Source: Candidatus Anoxymicrobium japonicum
Lineage (GTDB): Bacteria > Actinomycetota > Geothermincolia > Fen-727 > Anoxymicrobiaceae
Assembly (NCBI GenBank): GCA_002843005.1
Contig: PHEX01000008.1
Span: 1 to 37,919, forward strand
DNA: 37,919 nt
Reading direction: 5' to 3'
The position numbers and the translations under genes were made by a program. A model generated the notes under the pieces. It made no database searches. It was not told the origin of the DNA and saw only the letters and a list, made by a program, of their open reading frames with translations. Below, one piece after another: positions 130 to 7,243 of the stretch. How positions within the stretch are numbered: position 1 is the first letter of the stretch; every line of letters starts with the position of its first letter.

Positions 130-158
130 TTGACAGATGCGAAGCGAGCGCCTACAAT
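130..158 (+). promoter_or_regulatory. trp operon promoter (sigma70-type)
   Basis: A perfect -35 box TTGACA (130-135) is followed by a 17-base spacer and a near-perfect -10 box TACAAT (153-158). Transcription should start about 7 bases after the -10 box, at 165-166. That is the A of the leader-peptide ATG, so the mRNA is probably leaderless. It drives the attenuator and the seven trp genes. Confidence 0.85.
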
Positions 159-165
159 CATATTC

Positions 166-225
166 ATGTATTACTATGTGAAAGGGAAAGAGAAACTCAA
201 CAACTGGTGGTGGGGCATCCCATAG
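166..225 (+). CDS. trpL: trp operon leader peptide (attenuator sensor)
   Basis: This 19-codon ORF reads MYYYVKGKEKLNNWWWGIP and stops at TAG 223-225. It has three consecutive Trp codons (TGG, 205-213) near its end, the usual sign of a ribosome-sensed trp leader. It also starts with three Tyr codons. No SD precedes the ATG. The predicted transcription start falls on the ATG, so initiation on a leaderless mRNA is likely; leaderless trpL transcripts are known in Actinobacteria. The frame stays open upstream to a GTG at 124, which could start a longer 33-residue form if transcription begins earlier. Its role is to make ribosomes pause when charged tRNA-Trp is scarce, which selects the RNA fold of the following attenuator. 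Too short for ordinary gene finders. Confidence 0.85.
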   Translation: MYYYVKGKEKLNNWWWGIP

Positions 226-329
226 AGGGTTGCCCGAGAAGCGCTTTTCGCAGATAGCACGAGCGCAACCGTGACCCTCATGAGCAGGGTCGCGGATTTT
301 TTTACCGCGACGAGGTCGCGGTTTTTTTT
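226..329 (+). terminator. trp attenuator with mutually exclusive hairpins
   Basis: The terminator stem is ACCGCGAC (304-311) / GTCGCGGT (315-322) with loop GAG and eight T (322-329). A second copy of GTCGCGG at 289-295 can pair instead with CCGCGAC 305-311, giving an antiterminator. The 286-291 part of that copy can also pair with GACCCT (273-278), which frees the terminator. Upstream, AGGGT 226-230 could pair with ACCCT 274-278, and GGTTGC 228-233 with GCAACC 265-270. Proposed logic: a ribosome stalled on the Trp codons frees 226-233 and favours the antiterminator; a ribosome reaching the stop codon covers it and favours termination. The 289-295 / 305-311 / 315-321 core is clear in sequence. 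The upstream pairings are a model. Confidence 0.8.
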
Positions 330-2083: not shown

Positions 2084-2673
2084 TGGCGCCGGCGATGGCC
2101 GTACTGATCGACAACTACGATTCATTCACATACAACATCGCGCAGTACCTCGAGGAGCTTGGCGCGCGTGTTGTGGTGGCGCGGAACGATCGCATAGATG
2201 TGGCGGGGATAAAAGCGCTCGCGCCCACGCATCTCCTTATCTCACCTGGGCCCGGCAGGCCAGAGGAATCCGGTATCTCTTGCGAGGTGGTGCGTCGGCT
2301 CACGGGCGAGACGCCGATCCTTGGCGTCTGTTTGGGACACCAGGTCATTGGGCACGTGATGGGGGCCAGGGTGGACAGGGGGCCGAGGCCGGTTCACGGT
2401 TCCACCTCGCGCATCTACCACGATGGAAAGAGCATTTTCAAAGGGATTGAGAGCCCGTTTGAGGCGACAAGGTACCATTCCCTCGTGGTAATGAGCGAAA
2501 ACGTGCCCGATTGCCTCGAGGTTTCGTGCAGGACGGAGGATGGCCTTGTGATGGGAGTTCGTCACAGAGAGGCGCTTGTGGAGGGCGTGCAGTTTCATCC
2601 CGAATCGATTCTCACAAATTGCGGCAAGACGATACTGGCAAACTTTCTCGAAATGGAAGGCGGGTGGCGTTGA
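2083..2673 (+). CDS. trpG: Anthranilate synthase component II (glutamine amidotransferase)
   Basis: Class I glutamine amidotransferase that hydrolyses glutamine and passes ammonia to TrpE. The catalytic Cys83 lies in GVCLGHQ, and the His/Glu pair in VQFHPES near the C-terminus. The N-terminal LIDNYDSFTYN and LISPGPGRPEESG segments are typical. It has 196 residues, a stand-alone TrpG rather than a fusion to TrpE or TrpD. The start overlaps the trpE stop by one base (TGATG), and the end overlaps the trpD start in the same way, which points to translational coupling. The same subunit could serve folate synthesis (PabA) if a pabB lies elsewhere; that cannot be judged here. Confidence 0.95.
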   Translation: MAPAMAVLIDNYDSFTYNIAQYLEELGARVVVARNDRIDVAGIKALAPTHLLISPGPGRPEESGISCEVVRRLTGETPILGVCLGHQVIGHVMGARVDRGPRPVHGSTSRIYHDGKSIFKGIESPFEATRYHSLVVMSENVPDCLEVSCRTEDGLVMGVRHREALVEGVQFHPESILTNCGKTILANFLEMEGGWR

Positions 2674-3695
2674 TGCTGAGTGAAGCAATAGAAAAAATCG
2701 CGAGAGGTGACGGCCTGGATCGTGAGGAGGCGCGGCGCGCGGCGCATGTGATCCTCAGTGAGGATGTGCCGGAGTCCGTCATAGGCGGCCTGCTGATAGG
2801 GCTCAAGACAAAAGGTGAGACAGAGGAAGAGATCGCCGGTTTCGCGCAAGGCATGCGCGAGGTGGGGGTTAGAATCGCGCCTTCCGTTTCCACGCTGGTG
2901 GATACCTGCGGCACGGGAGGGGACAGGAGCGGCACATTCAACATCAGCACCGCCGCTGCTATCATCACCGCCGCGGCGGGGGTGCCAGTGGCGAAACATG
3001 GGAACCGGGGGGTTTCCTCGAAGTGTGGAAGCGCGGACGTTCTCGAGGCTCTTGGCGTGAACATAGAGATAGGGCCTGAAAGTGTATGCCGGTGTATCGA
3101 GGAGGTAGGGATAGGGTTCATGTTCGCCCCCGCGTTCCACCCGGCGATGCGTCGCGTGATGCCCGCCCGGCGCGCTCTTGGCGTGGCAACGATTTTCAAC
3201 ATACTTGGGCCGCTGACAAATCCCGCCGGCGCTCACGCGCAGGTGCTTGGGGTCAGCCGGTCTGAACTGGCGCCTCTCATTGGACGGGTTCTGTGCTCGC
3301 TGGACTGCGAGAGAGCGTTTGTCGTGCACGGCATGGACGGACTCGACGAGTTCAGTCTTTCGACGGAAACAGAGGTTTGCGAGGTTGCCGGCGGTTCGAT
3401 GATCGAGTACGTGATGACTCCCGAGGATCTTGGATTGAGCCGCGTTGACAAAGAGAGCCTCAAAGGCGGTGATGCGCGGATGAACGCCTCGATCATCAGG
3501 AGCGTGCTTTCCGGGGAGAAGGGCCCCGCGCTCGAGATATGCCTGGCCAACGCCGCTTTCGCGATTCTGGCGGGAGGCGTGGTTCAGAGCGCCGCCGACG
3601 GGGTTGCCGCAGCGAGAGCCGCCGTCGATTCCGGCAAAGCCGCCGACACGCTCGACCGCCTGGTGTCGTTTGGCGGAAAGATTACTCCCCCCTGA
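2673..3695 (+). CDS. trpD: Anthranilate phosphoribosyltransferase
   Basis: Transfers the phosphoribosyl group from PRPP to anthranilate. The PRPP-binding DTCGTGGDRSGTFNIS motif, AKHGNRGVSSKCGSADVLEALG and GPLTNPA are all present. ATG 2673 overlaps the trpG stop (TGATG); the longer open frame from 2511 lies inside trpG and is not used. It has 340 residues. The last residues, GGKITPP, and the TGA stop are encoded by a C-rich/G-rich palindromic repeat starting at about 3685, so the natural C-terminus was probably replaced by a few repeat-encoded codons. This is the only trp junction that is not a TGATG overlap. Confidence 0.95.
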   Translation: MLSEAIEKIARGDGLDREEARRAAHVILSEDVPESVIGGLLIGLKTKGETEEEIAGFAQGMREVGVRIAPSVSTLVDTCGTGGDRSGTFNISTAAAIITAAAGVPVAKHGNRGVSSKCGSADVLEALGVNIEIGPESVCRCIEEVGIGFMFAPAFHPAMRRVMPARRALGVATIFNILGPLTNPAGAHAQVLGVSRSELAPLIGRVLCSLDCERAFVVHGMDGLDEFSLSTETEVCEVAGGSMIEYVMTPEDLGLSRVDKESLKGGDARMNASIIRSVLSGEKGPALEICLANAAFAILAGGVVQSAADGVAAARAAVDSGKAADTLDRLVSFGGKITPP

Positions 3696-3740: not shown

Positions 3741-3765
3741 AAAAGTGGAAAGTGATCGACGCCTC
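3741..3765 (+). repeat. 25-bp interspersed repeat, copy 1 (before trpC)
   Basis: The reverse complement of this stretch matches 8934-8958 and 13810-13834 over 25 bases with one mismatch; those two copies are identical. The shared core on the opposite strand is GAGGCGTCGGTCACTTTCC. It lies just upstream of the trpC ribosome-binding site, in the same relative position as copy 2 before the LOG-like gene. Confidence 0.8.
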
Positions 3766-3787
3766 GGAGGCGCTAAAGGAGTGGAAA

Positions 3788-4585
3788 GTGTTTCTTGATG
3801 ATGCGATGGAAGTGGGGCGCCAGGCGGCGCGCGAGCGCGCGCGAGCCGTCACGGAGTCGATGCTCGAGCGGCGGATAAAGGAAAGAGAAAAAGAGGTCCG
3901 TCCATCGTTCAGGAGGGCCGTCACGAGGGGCGATGGGCCTGTCAAGGTCATATCTGAAATCAAAAGGACGTCCCCTGTCGCGGGCGTGATACGCCTGAGC
4001 GCGGACGTGGGGGATATGGCGCGGCGCTACGAGCGTTCGGGCGCGTCGGCGATCTCGGTGCTGACGAGCGAGTTCGGGTTTGGTGGCCGGCCGGAGGATT
4101 TGCTCGACGCCGCGCGCTCCTGTGCGTTGCCGTTGCTTCGCAAGGACTTTATCTCGTTGGGGTATCAGGTGCTGGAGGCGCGGGCTTACGGCGCGTCGGC
4201 CGTGCTTTTGATATCTGAGGCGCTGGACGCGAAGGAAATCGAAACGCTGAGCGGTCTGGCTTTCGATCTCGGCATGGACGCGCTGGTGGAAGCGCATTCG
4301 CGCCCGGGAGTTGCCCGCGCGCTCGCGGCCGGCTCACGCCTGATCGGGATCAACAACCGCGACCTGTCCACTTTACAGGTGGATATTCAAACGACCGAAC
4401 GGCTGCGGAGCTTCGTTCCGGATTCCATCACACTGGTGAGCGAGAGCGGGATCAGAACTCGTGAAGAGTTTGACCGCGTCGCGTCGCTCGGCGTGGACGC
4501 GGTTCTCATTGGTGAAGCGCTCATGAAAGCCCCGGATCCGGGAAAGCGGCTCCAGGAACTGGCTGGATTGGATGGTGAGTTCTGA
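3788..4585 (+). CDS. trpC: Indole-3-glycerol-phosphate synthase
   Basis: Closes the indole ring from CdRP. The beta/alpha-barrel markers are VISEIKRTSPVAGVIR (catalytic Lys and substrate loop), LRKDFI, GINNRDLSTLQVD and LVSESGI. I place the start at GTG 3788 because AAAGGAG (3775-3781) lies 6 bases before it and the 265-residue product has the usual length. The frame is open to GTG 3752, but that codon lies inside the interspersed repeat and has no SD. The gene is separated from trpD by 92 bases of repeats instead of the overlap seen elsewhere, so it has regained its own ribosome-binding site. It overlaps trpF by one base. Confidence 0.93.
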   Translation: MFLDDAMEVGRQAARERARAVTESMLERRIKEREKEVRPSFRRAVTRGDGPVKVISEIKRTSPVAGVIRLSADVGDMARRYERSGASAISVLTSEFGFGGRPEDLLDAARSCALPLLRKDFISLGYQVLEARAYGASAVLLISEALDAKEIETLSGLAFDLGMDALVEAHSRPGVARALAAGSRLIGINNRDLSTLQVDIQTTERLRSFVPDSITLVSESGIRTREEFDRVASLGVDAVLIGEALMKAPDPGKRLQELAGLDGEF

Positions 4586-5226
4586 TGTGGGTGAAGATTT
4601 GCGGGATAACGAAGCTCTCAGACGCGATCCAGGCGGCGAAGTTCGGCGTGGACGCGGTTGGCTTCGTGTTTGCCGATAGCCCGCGGCGCGTTACGCGCGA
4701 GGAGGCAAGGGAGATATCGCGTGGCATGCCAGATGGCCCGGCAAGGGTAGGAGTTTTTGTGAACAGCGCCGTAGATGAAGTTCGAACGATTATCAAATAT
4801 TGTGGACTGGACATCGTGCAGCTTCACGGGGAGGAATCGTACGATTACTGCCTGGAGCTCGGCGAAAACATTATCAAGGCGTTGCGTGTGAACGGTACAC
4901 TCGATATCGCAAAGGCTACGAGGTACGCGCAGGAAGGGGGAGTCATGGCGCTTCTGCTGGACGGCTTTGACCCTTTGACGCGCGGTGGGACGGGCCGCGT
5001 TTTTGACTGGACCATGGTCAGGCTCATAGAAGGAAAGCCGAAACTGATCATCGCCGGCGGATTGAACCCGGGGAACATCGCCGACGTGGTGAAAATCGCG
5101 CGTCCGTACGGGGTTGACGCTTCGAGCGGCGTGGAGAAATCCCCGGGCGTAAAAGACGCCAGACTGATGTACGAGTTCATCGAGAATGCAAGAAAAGCTG
5201 ATTATATTACGGAGGCGAATTACTGA
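4585..5226 (+). CDS. trpF: Phosphoribosylanthranilate isomerase
   Basis: Amadori isomerisation of PRA to CdRP, the step before TrpC. The N-terminal KICGIT carries the catalytic Cys (residue 6). [42 protein letters not shown] (the Asp region) and [10 protein letters not shown] are all family hallmarks. It has 213 residues. The start codon overlaps the trpC stop and the stop overlaps the trpB start (both TGATG). It is a separate protein rather than a TrpC-TrpF fusion. Confidence 0.95.
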
Positions 5227-6434
5227 TGCTGGATGATTTCATGGCAGCTTCTAAGACACCGCCCGACGCCGGCAGAGCCGGGCACTACGGGGAGTTCGGT
5301 GGGCGTTTCGTGCCGGAGCCGCTTATCGCCGCGCTCGATGAATTGGAGGCGGCTTTTGAGAAAGCAATGGGAGATCCGGAATTCTCTCGAGAGCTGTCAC
5401 TGCTCTCCAGGGATTACGCGGGGAGGCCGACGCCTCTTTATTTCGCGGAGCGTCTGACACGCGAAGCAGGTGGCGCCCGCATCTATCTCAAGCGCGAGGA
5501 TCTGTGCCACACAGGCTCGCACAAGATAAACAACACACTGGGACAGTGCCTGCTCGCTCGCGCGATGGGCAAACAGCGGATAATCGCGGAGACGGGTGCC
5601 GGCCAGCACGGTGTGGCGTGCGCGACCGCGGCGGCCCTCTTCGGGCAGGAGTGCGTGGTGTATATGGGTGATGTCGACATCATCAGGCAGGCGCCGAACG
5701 TCGCCCGGATGGAGCTGCTCGGCGCGGAGGTTCGGCCGGTTCACGCGGGCAGCCAAACGCTCAAGGATGCGATAAACGAAGCTCTCCGCGACTGGGTCAC
5801 AAACGTGCGTACGACGTATTACTGTCTGGGGTCGGTTGTCGGGCCGCATCCATACCCTAAGATGGTCAGGGTATTTCAGTCGGTTATCGGGCAGGAAACC
5901 CTCGAGCAGTGCATGGAGCGCGAGGGGCGGCGTCCGGACTTGATTGTGGCTTGCGTCGGGGGCGGCAGCAACTCTCTTGGCATGTTCGCCCCGTTTATAA
6001 GTCAGGGCCCCAGGCTTGTGGGGGTCGAGGCGGGCGGGCGCGGGACCGGCCGCGGAGAGCACGGCAGAACTTTGTGCATGGGAGATGTGGGCGTGCTCCA
6101 CGGAGCGAAAAGCTATCTTTTGCAAGATGAGAACGGCCAGGTGCTCGAGACCCACTCGGTGTCCGCGGGCCTGGACTATCCGGGGGTCGGGCCCGAGCAC
6201 TCTTACCTCAAGGAAAAAGGGCTTGCGGAGTACACCGCCGTGGAGGACGGGGAAGTGCTCGACGCCGCGCGCTTTCTTTCGAGGATTGAAGGCATAATTC
6301 CCGCGCTCGAGAGCGCGCATGCGGTCGCGTACGCGATAGAGGCCGCGAAGACGATGGACAGCGATGAATTCCTGGTGGTGTGCCTGTCCGGCCGCGGCGA
6401 CAAAGATCTCGAAGAGTTGGGGAGGTGTGTGTGA
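5226..6434 (+). CDS. trpB: Tryptophan synthase beta chain
   Basis: PLP enzyme that joins indole to serine. The PLP-binding Lys100 lies in HTGSHKINN. The GRFVPEPL N-terminus, [11 protein letters not shown] and the phosphate-binding GGGSNS loop are present. It has 402 residues. ATG 5226 overlaps the trpF stop; an alternative ATG at 5241 is in frame. This is the ordinary TrpB1 type, next to trpA, so it should form the alpha2beta2 complex with indole channelling. Its stop overlaps the trpA start. Confidence 0.96.
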
Positions 6435-7243
6435 TGACCGGTGATGGCGGAAGGCTTTCAAAGATGTTCTCGAGTCTGCGCGGCCGGCGCCCTGCGCTCA
6501 TCGCGTATGCGACCGGCTTTTTCCCCGACAGGGAGAAGAGCCTGGAGGTGGTCATGTCCATTCTTGGGGCTGGCGCCGACGCGGTTGAGATAGGCATGCC
6601 GTTTTCCGACCCGGTGATGGACGGACCTGTCATTCAGAAATCGAGCGCGGCCGCGCTGGAGGCCGGCGCGACACCTGATGGCATCCTCGAGATGGTCTCC
6701 GAGCTTCGCGGGCAGACCGATCGCCCGTTGCTCGTCATGACCTACTACAACCTCGTGTTCAGGTTTGGGCCCGAGCGGTTCGCGCGTCGCGCCGCCGAGT
6801 GCGGCGTTGACGGCATCATTATCCCAGACCTGCCTGCTGAAGAGATGGCGCCTTTCAAGGACGCGTGCGGCGGCGCGGGTGTTGACACCGTGGCGTTCTG
6901 CTCAGTTACGACCTCACCCGCGCGCATCCGCGAGGCGGTCGCTATGTCAACAGGGTTTCTTTATTGCGTGTCGTTGCTCGGCCCCACTGGAGCGCGCTCG
7001 GCGATCTCCGACGAACTGCCGGGTTTCTTGACGAGGGTGAGGGAGAACGCTGATTGCCCTATCGCGGCGGGTCTCGGGATATCGACGCCCGAGCAGTGCG
7101 CAATCGCGGGCAGTATGGCCGACGGTGTGATAGTCGGAAGCGCGCTGGTCAAAGCGGCGGATCAGGCTGACGGCAACCTCTCACAGCTCACAGCTCTCGT
7201 TGCGTCCATGGCGAAAGCGCTGCGTGGCGATTTTTCGGCATAG
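6434..7243 (+). CDS. trpA: Tryptophan synthase alpha chain
   Basis: Releases indole from indole-3-glycerol phosphate for TrpB. The catalytic Glu is in DAVEIGMPFSDP and the catalytic Asp in FSDPVMDGPVIQ; GVDGIIIPDLP follows. ATG 6434 overlaps the trpB stop, with GGGAGG a few bases upstream; the open frame from 6380 lies inside trpB. It has 269 residues. The TAG stop (7241-7243) runs into the palindromic repeat that begins at 7242, so the element lies immediately at the end of the gene and may end transcription of the operon. Confidence 0.95.
   Translation: MTGDGGRLSKMFSSLRGRRPALIAYATGFFPDREKSLEVVMSILGAGADAVEIGMPFSDPVMDGPVIQKSSAAALEAGATPDGILEMVSELRGQTDRPLLVMTYYNLVFRFGPERFARRAAECGVDGIIIPDLPAEEMAPFKDACGGAGVDTVAFCSVTTSPARIREAVAMSTGFLYCVSLLGPTGARSAISDELPGFLTRVRENADCPIAAGLGISTPEQCAIAGSMADGVIVGSALVKAADQADGNLSQLTALVASMAKALRGDFSA

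Follow-up and report, generated by a model that had tools for sequence, protein, structure and literature searches.

Leaderless attenuation of trp genes has already been published for TrpL1 of Streptomyces lividans (PMC8079986) and trpL of Sinorhizobium meliloti (PMC7298713). In both cases, the transcript starts at the AUG of a peptide with Trp codons, as it would at the locus described here, and the attenuator is situated before trpE. An earlier note on this DNA had stated that such regulation is known in Actinobacteria, and the Streptomyces case bears this out. Classical trp attenuators are known in Corynebacterium and Streptomyces (PMC1262725); these and the E. coli trp leader share with our locus the Trp codons and the logic of the 1:2, 2:3 and 3:4 pairings. 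The leader of Corynebacterium ilvBNC, like ours, has a leaderless peptide with an antiantiterminator, an antiterminator and a terminator (PMC11857589). Finally, the enterobacterial his attenuator is an alternation of six segments, with the pairings AB, CD and EF and the alternative pairing DE (PMC10989985).

We considered a stretch of 37,919 nucleotides (hereinafter, the window) from Candidatus Anoxymicrobium japonicum, whose assembly (G000, the window being part of contig C8) comprises 1.77 Mb in 130 contigs. All features of the window discussed below lie on the forward strand. Family models identify a complete operon that follows the attenuator and extends to 7243: trpE (497-2083, with an ATG start and a Shine-Dalgarno sequence GGAG), trpG (2083-2673), trpD (2673-3695), trpC (3752-4585), trpF (4585-5226), trpB (5226-6434) and trpA (6431-7243); the operon thus has all seven genes, as stated in the earlier note. 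The spacer between the attenuator and trpE contains a pair of REP-like palindromes, CACAGACAGGAATGTCTGTG and CACAGGCATTCTTGCCTGTG (360-430); the genome has 22 sites of this kind, some of them likewise paired. The palindromes lie outside the switch and make the distance between the attenuator and trpE longer than in related genomes.

The promoter is of the sigma-70 type, TTGACA-17-TACAAT (130-158), with the -35 box at 130-135 and the -10 box at 153-158 (11 of 12 consensus matches). It is the only promoter-like match in positions 1-1000, where 0.6 matches are expected from shuffled sequences. Seven nucleotides separate TACAAT from the ATG (166-168) of trpL, a gene of 19 codons (166-225, stop codon TAG at 223-225) that encodes the peptide MYYYVKGKEKLNNWWWGIP, lacks a Shine-Dalgarno sequence and carries three successive Trp control codons, TGG TGG TGG (205-213). 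The promoter, the 19 residues, the three Trp codons and the missing Shine-Dalgarno sequence agree with the earlier note.

Candidatus Solincola and Candidatus Geothermincola are among the relatives that share this leader, and thus the class is Candidatus Geothermincolia (NCBI taxonomy). From TrpE-anchored loci, that is, from the class genomes with a full-length trpE, we obtained 25 leaders, the window included. All of them have the same promoter box in the same place, TTGAC(A/T/G) and TANNNT with a spacer of 16-18, followed by a peptide, 15-20 codons long, that carries WW or WWW close to its end. The peptides are alike in little but the Trp codons, and the residues flanking WW or WWW vary. Given the choice of the ATG start, the distance between the -10 box and the ATG is 6-10 nt in all 25 members. 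As a start at the usual distance from such a promoter would fall at the AUG or within a few nucleotides of it, leaving no place for a Shine-Dalgarno sequence, the promoter geometry would put the trpL transcript start at the AUG, and the peptide would be leaderless, throughout the class. This conservation strongly supports the leaderless trp attenuation that had been proposed for the window.

The leader is highly structured, as the region 166-330 folds at -63 kcal/mol compared to -46.5 (sd 4.0) for shuffled sequences (z = -4.2). In the MFE and centroid folds, segment 1 (213-221) pairs with positions 227-235 of segment 2 (221-235), forming an anti-antiterminator. The other possible partner of segment 2 is segment 3 at 271-282, the 2:3 pairing in the window comprising 12 bp between 221-233 and 271-282. 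Segment 3 (269-278) and segment 4 (286-295) form a 10-bp hairpin, terminator T1 (269-295), followed by an A and seven T (296-303, with T at 297-303). Segment 5 (304-311) and segment 6 (315-322) form terminator T2 (304-329), which ends with eight T (322-329). Since the hairpin at 269-295 has its own T-tract, there are two tandem terminators rather than a terminator and a decoy. The T-tract of T1 sits in the loop of yet another hairpin, 4:5 (289-311), in which GTCGCGG at 289-295 pairs with CCGCGAC at 305-311, acting as a putative anti-terminator of T2. The earlier note had correctly seen that CCGCGAC is complementary to both copies of GTCGCGG (289-295 and 315-321), the latter followed by eight T, and had proposed a three-way switch; it had missed that the copy at 289-295 belongs to a terminator of its own, the two copies serving as 3' arms in T1 and T2, respectively. 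Thus, the alternative pairing of 305-311 is borne out in all 24 leaders that have T2, while its role is likely to be the coupling of two terminators rather than a switch of one.

Both terminators are retained in 24 of the 25 class leaders; the remaining one (L100) has T1 only. In each of these 24, the 3' arm of T1 is complementary to the 5' arm of T2, the 4:5 helix comprising at least 7 bp and reaching, in the weakest case and with flanks, -13.4 kcal/mol. The weakest 3:6 helix, a functionless cross-pairing, reaches only -6.0 kcal/mol and is thus much less stable than this floor. When own partners were compared with permuted ones, partner-specific covariation was observed for 2:3 (z = -3.9), 3:4 (-6.5), 4:5 (-6.1) and 5:6 (-9.7), with 0 of 5000 permutations reaching the observed mean in each case, compared to z of only -1.6 for the control pairing 2:5; as relatedness of the leaders inflates such tests, they are support and not proof. 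In the 4:5 helix, double changes are seen at four of the seven pairs, at most 12 of 500 shuffles attain any of the measures, and the pairing is lost on sliding by 1-3 columns. The mean complementarity of 3:6 is about that of 4:5, but conservation of 3:6 is implied by the other three pairings; the comparison of 3:6 with 4:5 as a test for duplication proved not to be discriminating and was set aside. Judged by sequence complementarity, the conserved pairings 2:3, 3:4, 4:5 and 5:6 would form mutually exclusive antiterminators and terminators. The comparison of related leaders, suggested in the earlier note as a check, thus recovered the Trp codons in 25 of 25 leaders and the alternative pairing in 24 of 24, and the layout, which the note had considered new for an operon with all seven genes, turned out to be common to the whole class.

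The class leader is almost certainly a ribosome-mediated transcription attenuator responding to Trp. We are less sure of the part with the two-terminator relay, which we consider fairly likely, and as the best explanation overall we favour, with good though not full confidence, a leaderless-peptide Trp attenuator that acts by relay on two tandem intrinsic terminators. The sequences directly show the elements, their conservation throughout the class and a complementarity that covaries between own partners; the transcription start, the stalling of the ribosome and the order of folding are inferred. If Trp-tRNA is ample, the ribosome would reach the stop codon, covering or releasing segments 1 and 2, so that 3:4 (T1) and next 5:6 (T2) would pair and transcription would stop, with T2 stopping the read-through past T1. 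Without initiation, 1:2, T1 and T2 would pair as well. Under Trp-tRNA shortage, the ribosome would stall at 205-213, and segment 2 (221-233) would take segment 3 (271-282) ahead of the emergence of segment 4, so that T1 would be lost. Segment 4 (289-295), being left free, would in turn take segment 5 (305-311), T2 would be lost too, and, with both terminators disabled, trpEGDCFBA would be transcribed. Coupling of this kind is to be expected, since a strong uncoupled T2 would leave the operon shut in starvation.

In most leaders, equilibrium folding favours T1 over 2:3 (-31.0 vs. -24.8 in the window), the gap between the two states being a few kcal/mol in many of them, and the window leader retains P(T1) = 0.96 despite a ribosome mask. 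Folding with and without the mask had been suggested as a check in the earlier note; it confirmed that the leader is highly structured, but with the mask T1 remained dominant in most leaders, and masked equilibrium folding was therefore rejected as proof of switching. As T1 exceeds 2:3 in equilibrium stability, the switch must be kinetic. In a crude co-transcriptional simulation of 24 leaders (a growing chain with a barrier threshold), at barriers of 7-10 kcal/mol T1 was formed in 18-23 leaders when the ribosome had reached the stop codon vs. 3-4 when it was stalled at Trp, and any terminator, in 20-23 vs. 9-11, respectively. The window leader formed both terminators in the former case and neither in the latter. 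At barriers of 5-6 kcal/mol the simulation is ragged, and the window leader has no clean switch. Complementing T2 in silico, so that 4:5 was destroyed and 5:6 kept, increased T2 formation only slightly (e.g., from 6 to 8 and from 9 to 12 of 24 leaders); due to this weak effect, the swap was not accepted as proof of coupling. Thus, the simulation supports the switching of T1 and says little about the need for 4:5.

T1 alone could govern the leaderless attenuator, T2 being a leaky duplicated back-up and its match to the T1 arm, a remnant of the duplication. We consider this rather unlikely: the 4:5 floor is present in 24 of 24 leaders and missing for 3:6, 4:5 covaries with its own partners, and the 4:5 match persists in trpB2 leaders whose T2 stem differs (see below), although the similar mean complementarity of 3:6 and 4:5, the relative that carries T1 without T2, and the small change upon complementing T2 would fit such a scheme.

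Other alternatives concern the transcript start and the nature of the signal. It is very improbable that transcription starts further upstream and gives trpL a normal 5' UTR for its translation, as the near-consensus promoter lies 6-10 nt from the ATG in 25 of 25 leaders and a Shine-Dalgarno sequence cannot fit; the f7 family of trpB2 leaders, where the promoter is further upstream and there is room for such a sequence, provides a contrast. The earlier note had also asked whether tyrosine is sensed, as the window peptide has three Tyr codons in succession (169-177). For a joint sensor of Tyr and Trp the chances appear slimmer still: the Tyr run is found in 0 of the 24 relatives, 15 of which have no Tyr codon at all, and its position is wrong, since with a ribosome stalled at codons 2-4 the 1:2 pairing could still form, which would favour termination. 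We therefore rejected tyrosine sensing. Control by a T-box or another non-peptide device in place of the leader peptide has a negligible probability, as the Trp-codon ORF is conserved, the leader has no Rfam match at the gathering score, and the T-box and Trp_leader (RF00513) covariance models do not match it even at E up to 5; a T-box-like element does occur before trpE, but in a more distant actinomycete.

The covariance model of the leader (R1, see below) also picked up leaders at other loci. In one genome (G001), a similar attenuator is found before a stand-alone trpF (L222 on contig C11), identified by its N-terminal sequence and not by a family search. The leaderless leader, MKMISGTHGFYFWSSL, has T1, T2 and an 8-bp 4:5 pairing. 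Its peptide, FYFW, has a single Trp codon, with the putative two-terminator relay being the same as at trpE.

A gene for a TrpB2-type enzyme (TIGR01415, NF009057) has a WWW or WW leader ahead of it in three genomes (G001, G002 and G009). In a search starting from TrpB2, 26 regions upstream of trpB2 were readable, and 20 of them contain Trp-codon leader ORFs; counting G002, this makes 21 of 27 class genomes. At these loci (L231-L256 and L223) the leader ORFs come with terminators. The genome of the window itself has trpB2 with no Trp-codon leader ORF before it. The leaders of families f1 and f2 are leaderless and have two hairpins, the second with a different stem (CCCGGT...ACCGGG), and GTCGCGG of this second hairpin pairs with the 3' arm of T1 by 7-9 bp in 7 of 7 cases, the leaders being related and the shuffle fractions for single leaders mostly 0.01-0.1. 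As T2s with an unrelated stem still match the 3' arm of T1, 4:5 need not stem from hairpin duplication. The f7 leaders have a promoter further upstream, a conserved peptide WWW-x-x-RRGG-x-CPP, apparently led by a Shine-Dalgarno sequence, and a single terminator, with weak T-tracts in some of them. These observations suggest that TrpB2 is regulated by Trp. On balance, we lean towards a class-wide relay (2:3, then 4:5) that was also put to use at trpF and, after its second hairpin had been remodelled, at trpB2, with Trp controlling the latter.

Two decayed attenuators (L225 and L226) were found in G012, a genome of 1.4 Mb in which no trpE was found; at L225, the place expected for trpE is occupied by a tRNA-like gene. 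These attenuators are possibly relics or a surviving small RNA.

Among 397 Actinomycetota genomes, strong matches to the leader covariance model R1 were observed in the class alone, in 28 of its 31 genomes. Five weak matches outside the class (E from 0.002 to 0.01) were judged to be due to chance; the promoter-plus-Trp-leader arrangement was absent in the four that were inspected, and one (L230) lies within a coding region. None of the 90 trpE loci sampled from other Actinomycetota has a WW leader peptide immediately ahead of trpE, some few of the sequences being cut short by contig ends. Of the 64 more distant trpE loci, no more than two (L029 and L031, both from deltaproteobacterial MAGs) have a plausible Trp leader, in which a peptide of 33 codons that includes EWWW lies ahead of trpE. 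In the more distant actinomycete mentioned above (L013), the peptide leader before trpE is replaced by a T-box-like element (GGGTGGCACCGCGG and a terminator, approximately 4700-4990 of that locus).

In the open-access library searched, we came across no report of a leader-peptide attenuator whose two terminators are coupled via a common arm, and none of trpB2 being attenuated by Trp. The novelty thus seems to lie in the tandem coupled terminators and their reuse at other tryptophan genes, the principle of attenuation being classical. Tandem terminators usually serve as an unconditional stop, whereas here they apparently form a two-stage gate opened by one ribosome, which would combine low leakage with retained inducibility. 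The design rule is simple, one 3' arm sequence being used twice. The Trp-codon leaders of trpB2 (21 of 27) bear on the debated role of TrpB2 where trpB1 coexists, and argue for a role in Trp supply; if true, the reused relay would place this enzyme under Trp control.

For S. lividans and S. meliloti, a single attenuation site is described, located ahead of trpE or trpE(G); our seven-gene operon, in contrast, is preceded by two terminators that are probably coupled. The trp leaders of Corynebacterium, Streptomyces and E. coli have four segments and one terminator, without the 4:5 and 5:6 pairings found here. The ilvBNC leader of Corynebacterium differs in having three hairpins with one terminator and in responding to branched-chain amino acids, compared to two terminators and Trp in our case. 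The his attenuator is similar in that it has six segments and one stall is relayed through a chain of alternative pairings, BC also being an alternative pairing there. However, its U tract is on EF only, whereas the class leaders have terminators at 3:4 as well as at 5:6 and would sense Trp.
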